27,057 bases of DNA from a virus: positions 1 to 27,057 of the IMG/VR virus record IMGVR_UViG_3300021961_000518. One strand, 5' to 3'. Below are positions 962 to 12,067 of the stretch, piece by piece. Position numbers and translations under genes: made by a program. The notes under the pieces were generated by a model. The model did not search any database. It was not told the origin of the DNA and worked only from the letters and a program-made list of their open reading frames with translations. Within the stretch, counting starts at the first letter, position 1; the number at the start of each line of letters is the position of its first letter.

Positions 962-1102
962 ATGCCGCTGTCCAAATCGACAAGCAAAGCTGCGTTCCGC
1001 AAGAACATTAAGGCTGAAGTAAAGGCTGGCAAGCCGGTAAAGCAGGCTGTGGCGATAGCGTACAGCGTCAAGCGAGAAGCCGCCAAGAAGGGCAAGAAAT
1101 AG
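962..1102 (+). CDS. Small lysine-rich protein, 46 aa
   Basis: The gene runs ATG 962 to TAG 1102 and encodes 46 residues with 12 Lys and a G-K-P-V-K-Q-A-V-A-I-A-Y segment. I recall that type of segment from other small phage proteins, where a K-Q-A-V-A-I-A-like helix recurs. The start is two bases after the preceding stop. Its TAG is the only ordinary amber terminator among the 36 complete genes in the window. The portal ATG at 1106 is in the same frame, one codon after the TAG, so readthrough would fuse this protein to the portal N-terminus. The function is unknown. Charge suggests contact with nucleic acid or acidic partners. Confidence 0.7.
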   Translation: MPLSKSTSKAAFRKNIKAEVKAGKPVKQAVAIAYSVKREAAKKGKK

Positions 1103-1105
1103 CAC

Positions 1106-3352
1106 ATGGCCGACCCCACAGGCATCAACACGGCAGGCAAAGTAGCCAACGTCGGCTCTAACCCGCCCAAAACGTCAGGTGACGACGGCGACAAGATGGC
1201 AACCATGCGGTCGCGCCTCCAGATGGCGCAGGCTGCGTACTCTGACAGCCGTGAAGATGAACTGGATGACCTACGGTTTATGGCAGGATCGCCAGACAAC
1301 CAGTGGCAATGGCCTGCTGACGTGCTGGCGACCCGCGGAAGTGTGCAAGGGCAGACAATTAACGCACGTCCATGCTTGACAATTAACAAATTACCGCAAC
1401 ACGTCCGTCAAGTTACGAACGAACAGCGTCAAAACCGCCCTAGCGGCAAGGTAATCCCTGCCGATGACAACGCTGACGTAGAAGTTGCAGAGATTTTCAA
1501 CGGCGTTATGCGTCATATTGAGTATATGTCGGACGCCGACGTTGCATATGATACTGCCTGCGACAACCAAGTTACCTACGGCGAAGGCTATATCCGCCTA
1601 ATAACTGAGTATTGCGACGAAGACAGCTTTGATCAAGACATTCGCATTATGCGCGTCCGTAACTCGTTTAGCGTCTACATGGACCCGACGATCCAAGACC
1701 CATGCGGCGCAGACGCTGAATGGTGTTTTGTTACTGAAGACATCCTGAAATCCGACTATGAGCGTATGTTTCCAGACGCAGCGCCTATCTCGACTCTTAT
1801 GTCGCAGGGCGTCGGCAATGAAAGCATGGCACAGTGGCTGGCCGAAGATACCATCCGCATCGCGGAATACTTCTACAAAGACTACGAAAAAGCTACGCTG
1901 CACCTGTATCCGGACAACCAGACAGCTTTCAAAGGTACGCCGCAGGATGCTAACTTGCAGGCTATGTTTGGCAAGCCCATCCGCACACGCGAAGTAGACC
2001 GCCAGAAGGTCATGTGGATGAAAACCAACGGTTTTGACATCCTTGACGAACGCGAATGGCCGGGCAAGTGGATACCTGTCGTGCGCGTCATCGGCAACGA
2101 ATGGGAAGTCGAAGGCCGTATGTACATCTCTGGCCTTGTGCGTAATGCCAAGGACGCCCAGCGGATGTACAACTACTGGACGAGCCAAGAGGCAGAAATG
2201 CTGGCGCTGGCGCCAAAAGCACCGTTTATCGGCTACGGCGGCCAGTTCGAGGGTTACGAACAGCAGTGGAAGACTGCCAACACGACCAACTGGCCGTATC
2301 TGGAAGTCAATCCTGACGTTACAGACGGCGCTGGAGGCGTTCTACCGCTGCCACAACGCGCACAGCCACCTCTGCCCCAGACAGGCCTGATACAGGCTAA
2401 AATGGGCGCTGGAGAGGATATTAAGGCCACTACAGGCCAGTATGACGCATCGCTAGGCCAACAGGGCAACGAACGTTCGGCTAAGGCTATCATCGCACGC
2501 GAAAAGCAGGGCGATGTCGGCACGTATCACTATGTTGACAACCTTGCCCGCGCCATTCGCCACATCACACGGCAAGTCGTTAATCTTATCCCTAAGATTT
2601 ACGACACGCAGCGCATTGCACGCATCATCGGTGTTGATGGCGACGTGAGCATGGTTAAGTTCAACCCAACGCAGCCAGAGCCGGTCAAGGAAGTCCGCGA
2701 CATGGAAACTGGCGGATTGATCGAAAAGATTTACAACCCCGGCGTTGGTACATACGACGTTATGGTCACAACTGGCCCCGGCTACATGACCAAGCGTCAA
2801 GAAGCACTCGACGCCATGAGCCAGATTCTGCAATCCAACCCACAACTTTGGGGTGTTGCAGGCGATCTGTTCATCAAGAACATGGATTGGCCCGGCGCGC
2901 AAGAAATGGCCGAGCGGTTCAAGAAAATCCTTGATCCTAAGGTACTTGCTTCAGGCGATGAGTCACCTGAGATGGCTGCTGCACAGCAACAAATGGAAGC
3001 GATGGCTCAAGAACTGAACCGCATGGTCGATATTATCGAGGGTGTTCAGGCTGACGTCGCGAAGCGTGAAGTAGACATCAAGGAATACAAGGCTCAGGTA
3101 GACGCCTACGACGCTGAAACAAAACGTATCAGCGCGATGCAAGCAGGGATGACAGAAGAGCAAATTCAGGATATTGTCATGGGGACGATTGCCGGTGCGT
3201 TAGACACAGGCGATCTAATTAACGGATCACCAGAAATGCGTGAACAACCTATGATGAACGAAGAAATGCCTCCACAGCAACCAATGCCGGAAATGGGCGG
3301 TATGCCTGAAATGCCAGAGCAGCCACCTATGCCGCCTGAAGGAATGATGTAA
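1106..3352 (+). CDS. Portal protein (P22-like)
   Basis: This 748-residue protein matches the P22 gp1 type of portal in length (P22 is about 725) and texture. Portals form the dodecameric ring at one head vertex through which DNA enters and leaves, and to which the tail hub binds. Visible marks are the V-Y-M-D-P segment near residue 190, the N-E-R-S-A-K-A-I stretch near 455 that begins the long helical region, and a coiled-coil-prone Gln/Glu-rich region from about 624 to 690. The C-terminal 35 residues are a Met/Pro/Glu-rich low-complexity tail. The tail replaces the regular barrel helix ending and may be flexible. The start is three bases after the previous gene. The stop overlaps the next ATG (TAATG). 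Confidence 0.93.
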   Translation: MADPTGINTAGKVANVGSNPPKTSGDDGDKMATMRSRLQMAQAAYSDSREDELDDLRFMAGSPDNQWQWPADVLATRGSVQGQTINARPCLTINKLPQHVRQVTNEQRQNRPSGKVIPADDNADVEVAEIFNGVMRHIEYMSDADVAYDTACDNQVTYGEGYIRLITEYCDEDSFDQDIRIMRVRNSFSVYMDPTIQDPCGADAEWCFVTEDILKSDYERMFPDAAPISTLMSQGVGNESMAQWLAEDTIRIAEYFYKDYEKATLHLYPDNQTAFKGTPQDANLQAMFGKPIRTREVDRQKVMWMKTNGFDILDEREWPGKWIPVVRVIGNEWEVEGRMYISGLVRNAKDAQRMYNYWTSQEAEMLALAPKAPFIGYGGQFEGYEQQWKTANTTNWPYLEVNPDVTDGAGGVLPLPQRAQPPLPQTGLIQAKMGAGEDIKATTGQYDASLGQQGNERSAKAIIAREKQGDVGTYHYVDNLARAIRHITRQVVNLIPKIYDTQRIARIIGVDGDVSMVKFNPTQPEPVKEVRDMETGGLIEKIYNPGVGTYDVMVTTGPGYMTKRQEALDAMSQILQSNPQLWGVAGDLFIKNMDWPGAQEMAERFKKILDPKVLASGDESPEMAAAQQQMEAMAQELNRMVDIIEGVQADVAKREVDIKEYKAQVDAYDAETKRISAMQAGMTEEQIQDIVMGTIAGALDTGDLINGSPEMREQPMMNEEMPPQQPMPEMGGMPEMPEQPPMPPEGMM

Positions 3353-4824
3353 TGACCGTAAGCCTCAAGCATACCTTTCAGTCTGCTAAACTTGACAGCG
3401 CCGACACAACAATTGTTCAGCCATCCAACTGGAACGAAGAACATCAACTGACGCTTGCCACCAATAAGGTGCTAGGCCGCGCTACGGCTGGCACAGGCGC
3501 TGCCGAAGAAATTAACATCGGCACTGCTTTGTCGGTATCTGGCGGCACGCTGGCTGTAACTAACGTACCTGTCGCTAATGGCGGTACAGGCGCGACAACG
3601 CTGACCGGCGTAGTTAAAGGTAACGGCACGTCACCTATGACCGCCGGCGCTGTTGATCTTACGACTGAAGTGTCTGGTACGCTCCCTGTTGCAAACGGCG
3701 GTACAGGTGCTGCAACGCTAACAGCTAACAACGTCCTAATTGGCAACGGCACGTCGGCTGTAACTTCTGTCGCGCCGGGTACTTCTGGCAATCTACTGAC
3801 TAGCAACGGCACAGCGTGGACGAGCGCGGCTCCAACAACCGGTCCAGTACTTGAGTTTACAAGACCGTTTGTAACGCAAACTACTACAAACTTTACTGTT
3901 CCGTCCGGTGTTACAGCCATTCGGCTTTACGCCTGCGGCAAAGGCGGCGACACAATTTCAAACGGCTCTGTTATTATGGGCGGCGCCGGCGGGGGCGGTT
4001 TTGGTTTTGGAACCTTAGCGGTTACGCCCGGACAAGTAATCAACGTAACAATTAGTGGCGGCGTGGCTACTGTAGTACGCAGCGGAACAACTTTAATTAC
4101 TGCAAACCCCGGCAGTAGTGTTACCAACAGCGGAACCGGCGGCGCTGGCGGAACTGCCACAATAAATGGTGTTTTGACTAGCGGCGGCGCTTTTACTGGA
4201 GGCTCCGGCGGTTCCAATGTTAACAGCGGCCCCGGCGGAGGAGGTTCAGCCGGCTCACCGCTTGGAAATGGATTTGCTGGCGGCGGCGGCGGCCTAAGCG
4301 CAGGCGGCGGCGGCGGCGGAATCGGTGGTGTAGGGGGATTGGGTCTTGGCAACACTAACGGCGCCGGCGGCGGCGGCGGCGCAGGCGGCGCTGGCTCGGC
4401 ACCTGTTGCTGGCGGGTCTGGCGGCGGGTCTGGCGGCGGCGCTGGCGGCGCGGCAAACGGGCGAATCCCCGGCGCAGGCCGTGTGATACCTTTTTCCGAT
4501 CCTCTTTTGGCTGGCTTAACGGCAACGGGCGCCATCGCTGGAAGTACTAACGGTCTCATGTCATTGACTAGCGGTCCCGGCGCTGGGGGCGCTGGGGGTG
4601 CTGCCGGAACTAATGGTCTTGCTACTCCGGGCGGTTTTGGCGGCGGCGGCGGCGGTCGCGCTTCATCCAATAGTAATGGAGTTTTCGTTGGAGGCGCTCT
4701 AGGTGGCGGCGGCGGCGGCGACTATAACTCCGTTGTCGCCTCACTTGCGGGCGGCGGCGCCGGCGGTATTGACGCCGTTGGTACACTTGTGGGCGGCCCA
4801 GCAACAGTCTGGATTTATTATTAA
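3352..4824 (+). CDS. Glycine-rich tail fibre or adhesin-like protein 1
   Basis: This protein has 490 residues. The first 165 contain two copies of a phage-fibre repeat, P-V-A-N-G-G-T-G-A followed by T-L-T and N-G-T-S, which is common in tail fibre stems. From about residue 168 a glycine-rich domain starts with F-T-V-P-S-G-V-T-A-I-R-L-Y, the usual first strand of Gly_rich_2-type domains. It continues with many GGG runs to a final strand W-I-Y-Y. Known Gly-rich phage adhesins, such as the S16 gp38 tip, pack such runs as polyglycine II helices that bind host receptors; that role here is inferred. The start overlaps the portal stop (TAATG). Lying between portal and scaffold is an unusual place for a fibre gene. 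Long antisense frames here are GGC/GCC shadows. Confidence 0.8.
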   Translation: MTVSLKHTFQSAKLDSADTTIVQPSNWNEEHQLTLATNKVLGRATAGTGAAEEINIGTALSVSGGTLAVTNVPVANGGTGATTLTGVVKGNGTSPMTAGAVDLTTEVSGTLPVANGGTGAATLTANNVLIGNGTSAVTSVAPGTSGNLLTSNGTAWTSAAPTTGPVLEFTRPFVTQTTTNFTVPSGVTAIRLYACGKGGDTISNGSVIMGGAGGGGFGFGTLAVTPGQVINVTISGGVATVVRSGTTLITANPGSSVTNSGTGGAGGTATINGVLTSGGAFTGGSGGSNVNSGPGGGGSAGSPLGNGFAGGGGGLSAGGGGGGIGGVGGLGLGNTNGAGGGGGAGGAGSAPVAGGSGGGSGGGAGGAANGRIPGAGRVIPFSDPLLAGLTATGAIAGSTNGLMSLTSGPGAGGAGGAAGTNGLATPGGFGGGGGGRASSNSNGVFVGGALGGGGGGDYNSVVASLAGGGAGGIDAVGTLVGGPATVWIYY

Positions 4825-4836
4825 GGAAAGTATGTC

Positions 4837-5103
4837 ATGAAATGGGCCTATAACAACAACGGCGTCCTGTACGATGTGGTCATGACGCACCCTAGCATTC
4901 TGTTTCCACAGGGTTATGCCGATCAGTTCATTGAAGTACCTGACGAAGCCGTAAATGGTTGGTTCTGGGATGGCGAAAACGTATCTGAGCCTCCGGCTCC
5001 AGAGCCTATGCCTGTCCCACCACCACCCACTAAAGAAGAATTGCTGGCACAGCTTCAGGCGCTGCAAGCCCAAATTGAAGCCCTTGGAGAAACTCCGGCA
5101 TGA
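4837..5103 (+). CDS. Small acidic companion protein, possible fibre assembly factor
   Basis: This 88-residue acidic protein is preceded by a good ribosome-binding site (AAGGAAAG at 4823-4830). The N-terminal 55 residues contain aromatic-rich text (N-G-W-F-W-D-G-E), followed by a Pro-rich linker and a C-terminal helix (K-E-E-L-L-A-Q-L-Q-A-L-Q-A-Q-I-E-A-L) with heptad-like Leu spacing. This layout resembles small proteins encoded directly after phage fibre genes, often called tail fibre assembly proteins, which may chaperone or cap the fibre. I do not recognise a named family. Its stop overlaps the next start (ATGA). A similar gene follows the second glycine-rich protein at 6757. Confidence 0.7.
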   Translation: MKWAYNNNGVLYDVVMTHPSILFPQGYADQFIEVPDEAVNGWFWDGENVSEPPAPEPMPVPPPPTKEELLAQLQALQAQIEALGETPA

Positions 5104-5462
5104 AATGCGCTGATTTTATAGGCACACTGTTTCTGGCGCGCGACGTAGCGCACAGCACGCACCTGAACACTCGCAGCTTTGCCAAGCACTCTGCGTTGAA
5201 CACTTTCTATGATGAAGTGATTGAACTGGCTGACAAATTTGCTGAGGCCTATCAGGGCAAATACGGCCTTATCGGGCCTATCTCGCTTATGTCGGCTAAG
5301 AAGACGAACAACATTGTCGAGTTTCTTGAAGGTCAAGTAGACGAACTGATGGAAATGCGGTATAAAGTCGTTGATAAGGAGTGTACCCCACTCCAAAACA
5401 TTATCGACGAGATTTTTGGGTTGTATTACTCAACCTTGTACAAACTTAAATTTCTCGCATAA
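5100..5462 (+). CDS. DUF5856-like, possibly ferritin-like helical protein
   Basis: This 120-residue, mainly helical protein is coupled to the upstream gene by ATGA. Residues 14-40 contain R-D-V-A-H-S-T-H-L-N-T and F-A-K-H-S-A-L, followed by F-Y-D-E-V-I-E-L. The spaced His and Glu residues on predicted helices resemble Dps or ferritin-like four-helix proteins. I recall a phage and environmental family, DUF5856, with this pattern. If correct, the His/Glu set could bind iron or another metal, but no function has been shown to my knowledge. Placed between fibre-like genes, it could be a particle component or an unrelated cargo gene. Confidence 0.6.
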   Translation: MKCADFIGTLFLARDVAHSTHLNTRSFAKHSALNTFYDEVIELADKFAEAYQGKYGLIGPISLMSAKKTNNIVEFLEGQVDELMEMRYKVVDKECTPLQNIIDEIFGLYYSTLYKLKFLA

Positions 5463-5473
5463 GGACGCGACAT

Positions 5474-5791
5474 ATGGAAATTTTACGCCCTCTTAACGAC
5501 GCCGGTTTTGCTACTCAAAGCGTAGCTTACACTGGGACTGCTGGTTCTGTAACTGGCTGGAACGCTGGCCCGCAAGCCGTGCTGGTGTGGTGTACATCTG
5601 ATGCGTATATCCGCGTTGGTAACGGCGCTACGGCTACGACGGCTGACACGCCGCTGCCAGCCAACACGCCCGTACCTATTTACGTACCACAACCCGGCGA
5701 TGCTGGTGGTAACGGCGGTCCTTGGCGCGTCAGCGCGATCCAGATCAGCGCCGGCGGCACAATGTACGCAAAGCCGATCAACATCCGATGA
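5474..5791 (+). CDS. Small structural-type protein, 105 aa
   Basis: This 105-residue protein is predicted to be mostly beta-strand. It reads like a compact phage surface or head protein: V-L-V-W-C-T-S-D-A-Y-I-R-V-G-N-G-A-T-A-T, then P-L-P-A-N-T-P-V-P-I-Y-V-P, ending in an I-S-A-G-G-T-M-Y-A-K-P-I strand. I recall similar short proteins in the structural blocks of podoviruses, without assigned function. It starts after a weak AAGGA-type site at 5461-5465. Its TGA overlaps the ATG of the next gene at 5788, so it is coupled to the second adhesin. Confidence 0.7.
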   Translation: MEILRPLNDAGFATQSVAYTGTAGSVTGWNAGPQAVLVWCTSDAYIRVGNGATATTADTPLPANTPVPIYVPQPGDAGGNGGPWRVSAIQISAGGTMYAKPINIR

Positions 5792-6756
5792 GTTTCGGCG
5801 TCCCCGTCCGTAATGGTATAGGTATAGGCTTAAAAGCCTCTACTTCGCTGTCTACGCGCAGTGGGCCAAGCGGTCCGCCTCAAGGACAGCAGGCCTACAC
5901 TACTGCGGGGACTTATTCCTTTGTTGTGCCTACGGGCGTGACAAGCGTGTGCGCTGTTGTTGTCGGCGGCGGCGGGGCTGGCCGCGCAGGCGGCACGGGC
6001 GGCGGCGGCGGCGGCGGCGGCCTTGCGTATTCCAACGCCATTTCCGTAACCCCCGGCGAAACTTTGACTGTTACTGTTGGTGCCGGGGGGCCATTTAATT
6101 TCGCCGGCAGCGGCAGCGGCAGCGCAAATGGCGGAACGTCATCCGTTGCGCGCGGCGGAACTGCGCTTGTTTCAGCTACGGGCGGAATTTCTGCGCCTTC
6201 GACAACTGGCGGCGCGGGCGGCAGCGGCACCGTAGGGCAATCACTGCGTACCGGCGGGGCCGGCGGTAGTGCCAACTCAACCGGGTCCGGCGGCGGCGGT
6301 GCTGCGGGCTACACCGGAAACGGTGGCGCTGGCTCTTCTTCGCCGGCGTCATCGGGAAGTGCTGCTGCTACGGGCGGCGGCGGGGGCGGTGGTGGTGCTT
6401 CGGGGTATTTTTATCAAGACCCCGGCGTATATTACGGACAAAACGGTGGTTCGGGCGGCGGCGGCGTAGGATTGTTAGGCCTTAGTAACACGGGTATCGC
6501 CGGCGCAGGTGGCGACGGTTTTTCATACGGCGGCGGCGGCGGGTCTGGCGGCGTAGCCGGCGGAAACTCTATTGGCAATTATAGCGGTTTTAGCGGCGGC
6601 GTTTACGGCGGCGGCGGCGGCGGCGCTGGGTTCATATATGATTATGCGACAGACACGCAGACAAACGGCTCGGCTATAGGCGGCGCTGGCGGCGGCGTCC
6701 GTATCATTTGGGGCGCAGACCGCGCATTCCCTTCAACTAACACGGGTAACGTCTAA
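5788..6756 (+). CDS. Glycine-rich adhesin-like protein 2
   Basis: This 322-residue protein starts at ATG 5788, chosen because it overlaps the upstream stop (ATGA). The frame stays open to 5722, but that extension gives an Arg/Gln-rich, non-conserved head. Residues 36-65 read A-Y-T-T-A-G-T-Y-S-F-V-V-P-T-G-V-T-S, then a strand and G-G-G-G, the classic opening of a Gly_rich_2 domain. About 230 residues of Gly/Ser-rich text with GGG runs follow, closing with G-V-R-I-I-W-G. It lacks the N-G-G-T-G-A stem repeats of the first adhesin, so it may be a tip protein or a short fibre. Receptor binding is inferred from family resemblance. Confidence 0.8.
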   Translation: MSFGVPVRNGIGIGLKASTSLSTRSGPSGPPQGQQAYTTAGTYSFVVPTGVTSVCAVVVGGGGAGRAGGTGGGGGGGGLAYSNAISVTPGETLTVTVGAGGPFNFAGSGSGSANGGTSSVARGGTALVSATGGISAPSTTGGAGGSGTVGQSLRTGGAGGSANSTGSGGGGAAGYTGNGGAGSSSPASSGSAAATGGGGGGGGASGYFYQDPGVYYGQNGGSGGGGVGLLGLSNTGIAGAGGDGFSYGGGGGSGGVAGGNSIGNYSGFSGGVYGGGGGGAGFIYDYATDTQTNGSAIGGAGGGVRIIWGADRAFPSTNTGNV

Positions 6757-7071
6757 ATGGAACCGACTGACCTCGAACTTTACATTCAAATCCGCGACGG
6801 GCAGCCTTTTGAGCATCCGATCTCAGCGGACAACTTTCGCTCGGCCTTCCCCGGTGTGGACATTGAGAACCTGCCAGACACCTTTGCTAAGTTTGTCCGC
6901 GTAGCGCCGCCTGAAATCGACACCTATGATGGCGTCACATATCAATGGGTCGATGGCGTTGTAAAAGATGTTTACAGCGTGCGTCCGATGACGGACGAAG
7001 AACGAGCCGCTAAGACGCTTCAAATTGAAGCAGCCAAAAATTCAACCGTATTGTCAAGCCCCATAATTTAA
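6757..7071 (+). CDS. Small companion protein, fibre-assembly-like, 104 aa
   Basis: This 104-residue acidic protein begins immediately after the second adhesin stop. It opens with L-E-L-Y-I-Q-I-R-D-G-Q-P-F-E-H-P-I and contains Y-D-G-V-T-Y-Q-W-V-D-G-V-V. It then has R-P-M-T-D-E-E-R-A-A-K, a segment typical of proteins encoded next to phage tail fibres (DUF4376-like or tail-fibre-assembly-like). The C-terminal helix is short. With the 4837 gene it gives each glycine-rich protein a small partner directly downstream. An assembly or chaperone role is inferred, not shown. Confidence 0.7.
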   Translation: MEPTDLELYIQIRDGQPFEHPISADNFRSAFPGVDIENLPDTFAKFVRVAPPEIDTYDGVTYQWVDGVVKDVYSVRPMTDEERAAKTLQIEAAKNSTVLSSPII

Positions 7072-7130: not shown

Positions 7131-7916
7131 ATGGACGAAACAGTCCCCAACGTAGCGGATGCCTCCGCGCCAGAACTCGAAGCCACGGCAGCAATCGAGC
7201 CTGTAGAAAACACGACGCCGGAAACGCCTGCTGAACAGGAAGCAAATAAGTCCTTCACACAAGAAGAACTTGACGCAATTGTTGGCAAGCGCCTCGCAAG
7301 AGAACAGCGCAAATGGGAGCGCGAACAGGCTCAAAAAGCAGAGGAAATGCAGGCCCGCCAACAAGCGGTGCATGACATAGCCCCTGAACAATTTGAGACT
7401 TATGAGGATTACGCAGAGGTTTTGGCCGAACGTAAAGCCGAAGAATTGCTGGCACGGCGGGAAACTGCCCGACAGCAAGCTGAATTGCAGGATGCCTACC
7501 ATGACCGTGAAGAAGCGGCGCGGGACAAGTATGATGACTTTGAACAAGTCGCTTACAATCCCAACCTTCCGATCACGGATTTCATGGCGCAAAGCATCCA
7601 AGCGTCAGACGCAGGCCCAGACGTTCTATATTATCTCGGCTCAAATCCGAAAGAAGCTGATCGTATCGCCCGCCTAGCGCCAATTTTGCAGGCAAAAGAA
7701 ATTGGAAAACTTGAGGCTTCATTGTCCTCAAATCCGCCGGTTAAAAGAACTTCAACCGCCCCGGCACCAATTGCGCCTGTCACTGCTCGTTCTGCTGGGT
7801 CAAACCAGTACGACACCACCGACCCTCGCTCGACTAAGTCGATGAGTACGTCGGAATGGATCGAAGCTGAACGGATGCGACAGATCAAGAAGTACGAGGC
7901 ACAACGCAACAGATAA
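7131..7916 (+). CDS. Head scaffolding protein
   Basis: This 261-residue protein is Glu/Gln/Ala/Arg-rich and largely helical. Residues 35-150 are charged coiled-coil text, including F-T-Q-E-E-L-D-A-I-V-G-K-R-L-A-R-E, a motif recurrent in phage scaffold proteins. The middle contains N-P-N-L-P-I-T-D-F-M-A, then V-L-Y-Y-L-G-S-N-P, which I recall from scaffolds of P22-like podoviruses. The C-terminal 20 residues form a basic amphipathic helix (W-I-E-A-E-R-M-R-Q-I-K-K-Y-E), comparable in place to the coat-binding end of P22 gp8. Scaffold directs coat assembly into the procapsid and leaves before packaging. It lies immediately before the coat gene, as expected. Confidence 0.9.
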   Translation: MDETVPNVADASAPELEATAAIEPVENTTPETPAEQEANKSFTQEELDAIVGKRLAREQRKWEREQAQKAEEMQARQQAVHDIAPEQFETYEDYAEVLAERKAEELLARRETARQQAELQDAYHDREEAARDKYDDFEQVAYNPNLPITDFMAQSIQASDAGPDVLYYLGSNPKEADRIARLAPILQAKEIGKLEASLSSNPPVKRTSTAPAPIAPVTARSAGSNQYDTTDPRSTKSMSTSEWIEAERMRQIKKYEAQRNR

Positions 7917-7931
7917 TTTGGGATTATTACC

Positions 7932-9140
7932 ATGTCTAACTCGATTTTAACAATTGACATGATTACGCGGAAGGCTCTGGAAATTCTGGAGAACAACCTC
8001 GTACTCACACGTAACGTAAACCGCCAGTACGACGACAGCTTTGCTGTTGAAGGTGCTAAAATTGGCTCAACCCTGCGTATCCGTCTTCCAGACCGCGCGC
8101 TTGTAACTGACGGCGCAGCACTTCAGGTATAGGATGACAACGAACAGTTCACAACACTGACCGTTGCCAACCAGAAGCACATCGGCGTCAACTTCACATC
8201 TGCTGAATTGACCATGCAGCTTGACGATTTCGCAGAGCGCGTTCTCAAACCACGTATCTCGCAGCTTGCTTCCAGCATCGACGCTGACGTTGCAAACGCG
8301 TATGCAACCATCGGTAACTCGGTCGGCACGCCCGGCACAACTCCCGGCACTTCGGCAGTTCTTCTTGCTGCACAGCAGAAGCTGAACGAAAACGCTGCGG
8401 TGATGTCGCCACGTTACGCCACCGTCAACCCAGCAGCTAACGCTGGCTTGGTCGAAGGCTTGAAGGGTCTCTTCAACCCAACCGACACGATCAGCAAGCA
8501 GTTCAAGAACGGCATGATGGGTACAGGCGTACTTGGTTTCGACGAAATCAATATGTCGCAGTCCATCAAGCAGTTCACCACTGGTTCGCGTACTGCAACC
8601 GGCGGCACGACTTCGGCTGCAATCACCACTGAAGGTGCAACGGCAATCGCCATCACCGGCGCGGGTGCTGCTGCAACTGTCAAGGCTGGCGACGTGTTCA
8701 CTGTAGCTGACTGCTTCTCAGTCAACCCACAGACACGTGAAAGCACTGGTTCGTTGTTCCAGTTCGTTGCGCTGGCTGATGTCACGCTCAACGGTTCAGG
8801 CGCAGGCAGCATTACTGTTGCACCGATCTACTCGGCTGCACACGCTCTCGCCACCGTCAACACACTGCCCGGCAACAGCAAGGCAATCGTGTTCGTCGGC
8901 GCAGCGTCCACACAGTACGCTCAGAACCTTGTATACCACAAGGACGCTATCACCTTCGCAACCGCCGACCTTCTGCTCCCACAGGGCGTAGATATGGCTT
9001 CGCGTCAGGTGCATAACGGCATCAGCTTGCGCGTTGTTCGTCAGTACGACATCAACAACGACCGTATGCCTTGCCGTATTGACGTTCTGTATGGCTACAG
9101 CACAATCCGTCCACAAATGGCCGTCCGGATGTGGGGTTAA
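7932..9140 (+). CDS. Major coat protein (P22 gp5-like), interrupted by in-frame amber codon
   Basis: The open frame from ATG 7932 encodes a P22 coat-type major capsid protein of about 402 residues (P22 is 430), except that codon 67 (8130-8132) is TAG. The same frame then runs without a break to TAA 9140. Before the stop, residues such as N-R-Q-Y-D-D-S-F-A and G-A-K-I-G-S-T-L-R-I-R fit the N-arm and first strands. Right after it, D-D-N-E-Q-F-T-T-L-T-V continues the fold with L-T-M-Q-L-D-D-F. Near residue 260, V-N-P-Q-T-R-E-S-T-G-S is also typical. An ATG at 8208 in the downstream part has no ribosome-binding site and would lack the N-terminal arm. GGGA at 7920-7923 serves the true start. A strong terminator follows. 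Confidence 0.9.
8130..8132 (+). other. In-frame TAG (amber) inside the coat gene
   Basis: The codon order is CAG GTA TAG GAT GAC. From memory of P22-type coats, homologues read Leu-x-Gln-Asp here, so TAG most simply replaces CAG by one C-to-T change. No other long gene in the window contains an in-frame TAG, so this is not general recoding of TAG. Explanations are a sequencing or assembly error, a rare mutant in the source population, or readthrough by a suppressor tRNA. Confidence 0.85.
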
Positions 9141-9824: not shown

Positions 9825-10535
9825 ATGGAAACGGCTGGGGACATAATCAACGGTTCGCTTAGGCTTCTAGGCGTTCTGGCAGAAGGCGAAACTCCCTCGG
9901 CTGAAACGTCGCAAGACGCCTTGCGCGCTATGGATCAGATGATCGATAGCTGGAACACTGAGCGCCTGTCCGTTTTCGCTACGCAAGACCAGATATTCAC
10001 ATGGCCTGCCGGCGAACTGTCGCGCACGCTTGGCCCTTCCGGCGACTTTGTCGGCAACCGCCCAGTGCTGCTTGAGGACTCGACATATTTCCGCGATCCC
10101 GGCACCGGCATTAGCTACGGCATCAAATTCATTAACCAGCAGCAGTATAACGGCATCGCGGTTAAGACGGTGACATCTACGTTCCCGCAAGTCATCTTCG
10201 TCAACAACACGTACCCTGACATTGAAATGTACATCTACCCGCGCCCTACGCGCGCTCTGGAATGGCATTTTATTTCGGTCGAAAAACTGACACAGCCGGC
10301 TTCGCTCAATACCAACCTTACATTTCCGCCCGGATACTTGCGTGCGTTCCGTTACAACTTGGCGTGCGAACTAGCACCTGAGTTTGGCGTTGAGCCATCG
10401 CCGCAAGTCCAGCGTATAGCTATGACATCTAAGCGCAACCTGAAGCGCATCAACAACCCAGACGACATCATGTCGATGCCGTACAGCATTGTGGCTACAC
10501 GCCAGCGGTTTAATATCTTCGCAGGAAACTACTAA
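9825..10535 (+). CDS. P22 gp4-like tail accessory / head-completion protein
   Basis: This 236-residue protein looks like the P22 gp4 type of tail accessory factor, which binds the portal ring after packaging and closes the head. N-terminal text includes I-N-G-S-L-R-L-L-G-V-L-A-E-G-E-T, then A-M-D-Q-M-I-D-S-W-N, a characteristic start of this family. The middle is strand-rich, and the C-terminus has L-K-R-I-N-N-P-D-D-I. P22 gp4 is about 166 residues, so this version is longer, but the N-terminal match and the place before the gp10-like gene support the call. The stop overlaps the next start (TAATG). Confidence 0.85.
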   Translation: METAGDIINGSLRLLGVLAEGETPSAETSQDALRAMDQMIDSWNTERLSVFATQDQIFTWPAGELSRTLGPSGDFVGNRPVLLEDSTYFRDPGTGISYGIKFINQQQYNGIAVKTVTSTFPQVIFVNNTYPDIEMYIYPRPTRALEWHFISVEKLTQPASLNTNLTFPPGYLRAFRYNLACELAPEFGVEPSPQVQRIAMTSKRNLKRINNPDDIMSMPYSIVATRQRFNIFAGNY

Positions 10536-12067
10536 TGAAGACGCCCATACTGGGCAGCGCGTATGTGGCCCGTTCAGTAAACGCTGCCGACGCACGCATG
10601 GTAAACCTGTTTCCAGAAGTCGTGCCAGAAGGCGGCATGGAGCCTGCCTTTCTACAGCGTTGCCCCGGCTTGCAGCTTCAACAAGTTATTGGCGAAGGTC
10701 CGATCCGCGGGCTGTGGGCGCACCAGACGCGCGGCGATGACTTCTACGTCGTATCCGGCTTTGAAGTCTACAAAGTGTCCAGCCTTACCGGGACGCCCAT
10801 CAAGCTAGGCGACGTGACCGGCACAGGTCCAGTATCCATCGCCGACAACGGCGCGCAGATATTCTTTGCCTGCAACCCTGACGCGTTTATTTACGACGAG
10901 TCAACCGACACGTTTGGGCAAATCACCGATCCTGACTTTCCGGGCGCAGTCACCGTCGGCTATCTGGACGGCTATTTCGTGTTCAACGAACCAAACAGCC
11001 AGAAGATTTGGGTGACGCAGCTTTACGACGGCTTTCAGATTGACCCATTAGAGTTTGCTAGCGCCGAAGGTAGCCCTGATGGCGTTGTCGGCATATTGGT
11101 AGACCACCGCGAATGCTGGGTGTTTGGTACCGACTCCACTGAAGTGTGGTACAACTCCGGCGGCTTAGACTTTCCGCTTTCGCCGATCCAAGGCGCGTTC
11201 AACGAAATCGGTTGCGCCGCACCACACTCCATCGCCAAGATGGACAACACTGTGTTCTGGCTGGGCGCTGACGCCCGCGGACAGGGTATCGTCTACAGGG
11301 CGGCTGGCTATAACGCACAGCGCGTGTCTACGCACGCGATTGAATGGCGCATCCAAAACTATCTAAACATGAGCGACGCGGTCGGCTACACTTACCAGCA
11401 GGACGGCCATGCGTTCTACGTTCTGTCGTTCCCATCTGCTGACGAAACATGGGTGTTTGACGCGTCTACTGGTGCATGGCACCAGCGGTCATCTTACGCC
11501 GCTCTTGCGCCAACTGAAGGTGCGTTTAACGCCGAAGCGTTTTATACAGGCGCGTTCTACACGGTGCTGCCGCTTACGCCTTCTGGCGTCAGTGGGGCAT
11601 TCTCACGTCACCGCAGCAACTGTCAGTGTAACTTCCAAGGCAATATCATTGTCGGCGACTACGCTAACGGCAACATTTACACGTTTGAGTTAAATGTTTT
11701 TGAAGACAACGGGATCGCGCAGCGTTGGTTGCGGTCGTGGCGCGCGCTGCCGACAGGACAAAACAATCTTAAGCGTACAGCAAACCATAGTTTGCAGCTT
11801 GAGTGCGAAACAGGCGTCGGCCTGAACACAGGCCAAGGAAGTGATCCGCAAGCCATGCTCCGCTGGTCCGACGATGGCGGCCATACATGGTCCAACGAAC
11901 ACTGGGCGTCTATGGGTAAGATCGGCGCAACTGGCACCCGCGTCATGTGGCGCCGGCTTGGCATGACGTTGAAGCTGCGCGACCGCGTCTACGAAGTGTC
12001 TGGCAGTGACCCTGTCCGTATTTATTTGACAGGCGCTGAACTTCTGTTGAGCGGCACAAATGCTTGA
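10535..12067 (+). CDS. P22 gp10-like packaged-DNA stabilisation / tail hub protein
   Basis: This 510-residue protein is close in length to P22 gp10 (about 472), which sits below gp4 and closes the tail hub. The opening M-K-T-P-I-L-G-S-A-Y, then D-A-R-M-V-N-L-F-P-E, and a repeat-rich beta-propeller-like body with many G-x-D and W segments match the stabilisation-protein family. Aromatic W-V-F-G-T-D-S-T-E-V-W-Y near residue 200 is the most recognisable part. Start and order support the call: it overlaps the gp4-like stop and lies before the distal tail genes. It ends eight bases inside the next gene. Confidence 0.87.
   Translation: MKTPILGSAYVARSVNAADARMVNLFPEVVPEGGMEPAFLQRCPGLQLQQVIGEGPIRGLWAHQTRGDDFYVVSGFEVYKVSSLTGTPIKLGDVTGTGPVSIADNGAQIFFACNPDAFIYDESTDTFGQITDPDFPGAVTVGYLDGYFVFNEPNSQKIWVTQLYDGFQIDPLEFASAEGSPDGVVGILVDHRECWVFGTDSTEVWYNSGGLDFPLSPIQGAFNEIGCAAPHSIAKMDNTVFWLGADARGQGIVYRAAGYNAQRVSTHAIEWRIQNYLNMSDAVGYTYQQDGHAFYVLSFPSADETWVFDASTGAWHQRSSYAALAPTEGAFNAEAFYTGAFYTVLPLTPSGVSGAFSRHRSNCQCNFQGNIIVGDYANGNIYTFELNVFEDNGIAQRWLRSWRALPTGQNNLKRTANHSLQLECETGVGLNTGQGSDPQAMLRWSDDGGHTWSNEHWASMGKIGATGTRVMWRRLGMTLKLRDRVYEVSGSDPVRIYLTGAELLLSGTNA

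Follow-up and report, generated by a model that had tools for sequence, protein, structure and literature searches.

A lone in-frame TAG in the coat gene of a P22-like phage contig: probably a sporadic base change without function

The stretch of DNA analysed here (the window), 27,057 bases long, makes up an entire virus record; in it, the frame of a major coat protein is interrupted by TAG. How is this stop to be understood? The contig consensus could be wrong at this base, or a mutation could recently have inactivated the gene; the stop could be read through by a suppressor tRNA and limit capsid synthesis; it could divide the gene into two separate proteins; or TAG could simply mean glutamine in this phage. 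The following features are involved.

7932 to 9140, plus strand: frame of a P22-type major coat protein (402 codons, with Pfam and PHROG matches), interrupted at codon 67
8130 to 8132, plus strand: in-frame TAG, codon 67, where relatives have Gln
8208 to 9140, plus strand: open reading frame after the stop, starting with TTG, whose product would begin at residue 93

The TAG is in frame with the ATG at 7932, and 335 sense codons lie in the same frame between it and the TAA at 9138–9140. The part downstream of the stop is sufficient by itself to match both PF11651 (P22_CoatProtein; E = 3.4e-31, positions 81–423 of the 423 in the profile) and PHROG 283 (major head protein; E = 1.7e-61). As viral and cellular relatives align with the frame at 67–99% identity, and distant phages at 35–42%, it is, judging by homology, a coat frame rather than a chance open frame. 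The family profile of a P22-type (HK97-fold) major coat protein is present, and the uninterrupted frame expected of such a gene is broken at codon 67, where the relatives are unbroken. By descent, therefore, this is a coat gene as far as homology can tell, its intact product being putative.

The position of the stop in the protein was established with a profile (A1) built from ten coat sequences, which was searched against solved structures and matched the solved P22 gp5 (E = 5.3e-31), whereas the single coat sequence yielded no match to solved structures. Column 67 of the profile corresponds to residue 67 of gp5, as counted by eye along the alignment. In gp5 (PMC9965877), the N-arm comprises residues 2–30 and the E-loop residues 51–78, and the N-arm, F-loop and E-loop all fall within residues 2–78 with a short P-domain stretch between. 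As codon 67 aligns with gp5 residue 67, the stop falls in the region of the E-loop. The N-arm and F-loop regions would remain on the 66-residue piece, and the product started at 8208 would be devoid of the regions matching all three elements.

To see what relatives have at codon 67, we considered 80 viral loci (the best 80 of 600 matches), which were not picked by this codon, since the search patterns were all located downstream of the stop. After removal of three identical copies, 77 distinct ones remained, one of which does not cover codon 67. In all 76 distinct covering copies among these best 80 of 600 the codon encodes Gln (CAG, n = 65; CAA, n = 11), and the same holds for 13 of 13 covering copies on cellular contigs (14 loci, one not covering). 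Hence none of the covering copies, viral or cellular, has the stop, whereas a stop conserved among relatives would be expected were readthrough at this site programmed. Of 40 phage records matched, six named ones were compared at codon 67: five have Gln, and Xanthomonas phage PBR31 has Glu. A larger tally of 182 copies, from which 13 identical ones had been dropped, gave 146 CAG, 35 CAA and one copy not covering the codon, but it is biased, including loci fetched with a pattern that demanded CAA or CAG, while the tally of 76 and 13 copies is not. In the sequence context tested, TAG at codon 67 was found in no other IMG/VR record, and CAA or CAG in at least 120 contigs; these searches for relatives may omit records very close to the window. 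The sequence-only reading had placed the TAG within a P22-like coat frame, named Gln at this codon in homologues, explained the stop by one base change and remarked that a product from 8208 would miss the N-arm. All this is borne out, by the frame coordinates and both profile matches, by the covering copies (76 viral, 13 cellular), by codon 67 being Gln, mostly CAG, in relatives, and by a start at residue 93 compared with an N-arm at residues 2–30 (PMC9965877).

The three nearest relatives (L002, L003 and L004) are at 96% DNA identity. At positions where these three agree, 12 of the base changes private to the window gene are synonymous and a single one is non-synonymous, which is the stop itself; the same count gives 4, 3 and 6 private amino-acid changes for L002, L003 and L004, respectively. 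This ratio of 12 to one indicates a gene that was under constraint up to a very short time ago. The pattern would fit a recent mutation, an error and a still translated frame alike, and by itself does not separate them.

Since two complete relatives measure 37,569 and 38,801 bases, we take the window to be a fragment; by comparison with these two, about 10 kb of the genome would be missing. Four genes around the coat gene, or relevant to the use of TAG discussed below, are as follows.

962 to 1102, plus strand: conserved gene of 46 amino acids (PHROG 2423, E = 4e-18), ending in TAG at 1100–1102
1106 to 3352, plus strand: P22-like portal gene (PF16510, E = 7e-172), intact, with no internal stop in comparison with relatives
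7131 to 7916, plus strand: head scaffolding protein (PHROG 8865, E = 1.1e-30), directly upstream of the coat gene, intact, with no internal stop in comparison with relatives
10535 to 12067: head closure gene, intact

For 25 of the 32 genes a relative could be placed in frame, and the coat TAG was the only in-gene stop exposed in this way; the other stop positions listed, 7119 and 22320, are upstream of gene starts. An unfiltered comparison of frames was too noisy, as antisense open reading frames of the relatives were counted; its three frame changes lie on the minus strand at 577–1389, and no gene was placed on that strand. With the filter applied, no other gene among the 25 testable was broken, and we rejected general decay or poor sequence of the window as an explanation. 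The stretch between the portal and scaffolding genes (3352–7071) is variable: for the genes starting at 3352, 4837, 5788 and 6757 we observed 0, 0, 1 and 1 relatives, respectively, at no less than 50% identity in the 80 loci (best 80 of 600), these low counts being partly due to locus coverage. The gene at 5100–5462 (PHROG 858, annotated as starvation-inducible transcriptional regulator) has 31 relatives at the same threshold in the same best 80 of 600.

How often such stops arise by chance was estimated from homologues of the window genes (at least 50% identity) in the 80 viral loci, again the best 80 of 600. In 535 gene copies, or 144,009 codons, there were three in-frame stops. Two of them are at portal positions 735 and 739 of 748, that is, 13 and 9 residues before the end, and we took these as presumably natural ends. 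This leaves one internal stop in 535 copies, a TAG at codon 213 of a coat gene (L019:2652-2654, IMGVR_UViG_3300008120_001046), so that, besides that of the window, one more coat gene of the group carries an isolated TAG within its frame; codon 213 encodes Lys in 146 of the 171 copies covering it, the window included. When TAG was sought at three other conserved coat Gln codons in IMG/VR, there were 0, 0 and 1 matches. The one match (L234:11752-11754, minus strand, IMGVR_UViG_3300007735_000409) falls within the five terminal bases of its contig and is probably a contig-end artefact. Thus, with one stop in each of these two coat genes, stray stops do occur in this collection. One stop in 144,009 codons corresponds to approximately 0.06 stray stops expected per window of 8,464 codons, so that a stray stop is uncommon for one given window and expected in a scan of many. 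Of the window coat codons that are one transition away from a stop, 18 are CAG, one is CAA, one is TGG and none is CGA, hence a stop arising from a chance transition would nearly always be TAG.

We conclude that the TAG is very probably a sporadic single-base change, without function, in an otherwise normal P22-type coat gene, a reading that accounts for all that was observed; the base is then either wrong in the consensus or the result of a mutation that recently inactivated the gene. A consensus error would be the likelier origin, and we lean towards it because the gene is constrained with the stop as its one departure, and because a genome of this kind could not multiply alone. A real recent mutation would be clearly less likely, if still a substantial possibility; the genome would then be a dead end, or complemented, or a prophage starting to decay. 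If the stop is real, translation would end after 66 residues, and the genome could not build capsids alone. We infer both the lack of selection on the change and the split between error and mutant. Several observations speak against a sporadic change: the stop is far from the contig end (8130 of 27,057), the contig is not visibly poor, as the other genes with an in-frame relative (25 of 32 testable) are all unbroken, a frame that is still translated would equally show no private amino-acid changes downstream of the stop, and the base rate is only about 0.06 such stops per window. The sequence-only reading had offered error, a conditional-lethal mutant and suppressor readthrough; the first two remain, in this order of preference, and the third found no support, as detailed below.

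A particular form of the real mutation, with its chances counted inside that option, is that the window comes from a decaying cellular prophage, the stop being an early step of decay. We regard this as improbable. Integration in kin is likely possible, given that Rhizorhabdus histidinilytica strain UM2 has a relative of the coat gene on a contig of 768 kb, yet no phage integrase match was observed in the window, which is incomplete and could have its integrase outside, or in 24 long records of viral relatives, and all other testable genes are intact. The relative in question (L221:10001-11020) has a coat 84% identical and is probably integrated; the Rhizorhabdus genome as a whole has 19 phage integrase matches. 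This relative hints at hosts among the Sphingomonadaceae.

Next in likelihood, and very unlikely, is that an amber suppressor tRNA, encoded by the host or by the unseen part of the phage, reads through the stop and limits coat synthesis. The frame after the stop is free of private amino-acid changes, as would be expected if it were still translated, and approximately 28–30% of the genome is unseen if it is as long as the two complete relatives. On the other hand, no tRNA was found by ARAGORN in the 27,057-base window, and the Rfam tRNA model detected no tRNA with a CTA anticodon in 50 records of relatives, many of them fragments. The only one of these records with a tRNA match has a tRNA-Met with anticodon CAT (L197:1501-1575, record G046), and the same search gave matches in all control genomes (14 of 14). 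Nor is the stop shared by any covering relative. The 100 nt following it fold no better than shuffled sequences (z = −0.20), and an RNA signal stimulating readthrough was rejected on this ground, although not every readthrough site requires an RNA structure. Finally, no virion protein is more abundant than the coat, so that partial readthrough would be costly.

The use of TAG as a terminator bears on the same question. In the first gene list a stop is present in 28 genes, of which 22 end in TAA, six in TGA and none in TAG; relative to the rate in relatives (58 of 513 mechanically chosen open reading frames from 16 records), the probability of this is 0.035, a mildly unusual outcome that would be in favour of suppression. 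But this list omitted the conserved gene at 962–1102, which does end in TAG. Because of this gene, TAG is, on the sequence evidence, a working terminator in the window phage. Three bases separate its TAG from the portal start at 1106, which is in the same frame, so that strong or efficient suppression would fuse the 46-residue protein to the portal. The 37 distinct relatives of the small gene terminate at this point or close to it, through TAA (n = 23), TGA (n = 11) or TAG (n = 3). Two relatives (L020 and L007) also have its TAG three bases before an in-frame ATG; in the window this ATG is the portal start. In the records of the nearest relatives (L002, L003, L004 and L005), TAG is rare too, ending 3 of 57 open reading frames. 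We therefore rejected the missing TAG terminators as a sign of recoding, since the list lacked 962–1102 and TAG is likewise rare in the nearest relatives.

Readthrough controlling capsid synthesis, as suggested from the sequence, is thus not upheld: the stop is absent from all covering copies (76 viral, 13 cellular), a conserved gene ends in TAG, searches of the window and of 50 records of relatives, many of them fragments, gave no suppressor tRNA, and the RNA downstream of the stop folds no better than shuffled sequences. The sequence-only reading had itself named sense codons throughout the related phages, together with no suppressor tRNA, as the outcome arguing against programmed readthrough, and this is what the covering relatives, the window and the 50 records, many of them fragments, show. 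What small chance programmed readthrough retains, it keeps mainly because the host and the missing part of the genome are unseen. In its fullest form, which we consider highly doubtful, the host would be a suppressor strain, the coat would be made by suppressing this TAG, capsid yield would be tied to the suppressor level, and the L019 coat would be a second independent case. If readthrough were true, it would mean capsid-dosage control in P22-like phages; such control was not found in a limited search of literature listings, from which we make no claim of its absence from print.

It is hardly conceivable that the two pieces, the 66 residues and the product started downstream, act as separate proteins: an open reading frame from the TTG at 8208 does exist, but no covering relative shares the split, and the downstream product would miss the regions matching the gp5 N-arm, F-loop and E-loop, as these are delimited in PMC9965877. 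The least credible alternative, with a practically negligible chance, is a changed code in which TAG means Gln: the TAG does sit where relatives have Gln, which is its meaning in table-15 phages (PMC11210395), but the listed genes contain a single in-frame TAG in 8,464 codons with no other in-gene stop in the 25 of 32 genes testable, TAG ends the conserved gene at 962–1102, which already contradicts such a code, relatives terminate 58 of 513 mechanically chosen open reading frames with TAG, and searches of the window, itself a fragment, and of the 50 records of relatives, many of them fragments too, brought up no suppressor tRNA, in agreement with the earlier view that full recoding is unlikely.

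The coat TAG as it stands thus matters little. The lesson is rather that, when a metagenome contig shows a one-base stop, the frequency of such stops in relatives should be considered first and readthrough proposed only afterwards.

The nearest named phage records are DSL-LC05 (OR003940) and ctNMl277 (MW202483), with coats 78% and 82% identical, respectively, to that of the window over the full frame. Both coats are without an internal stop and have CAG at codon 67, where the window has TAG. In DSL-LC05 the scaffolding gene adjoins the coat gene, as in the window, and in ctNMl277 the neighbour of the coat gene is annotated as trbI. Laboratory amber mutants of phage structural genes likewise have a stop giving a short non-functional fragment (PMC9576892); such mutants are kept on suppressor hosts, whereas the stop in the window is known from the contig consensus alone, and its base may not be real. 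Phages with TAG recoded to Gln (table 15; some Crassvirales and others), as described in PMC11210395, resemble the window in having TAG where relatives have Gln. They carry it, however, in many genes, for example in 41 open reading frames of phAss-1 according to PMC10607447, whereas the listed genes of the window contain one, and in the window, unlike in these phages, TAG still ends a gene.
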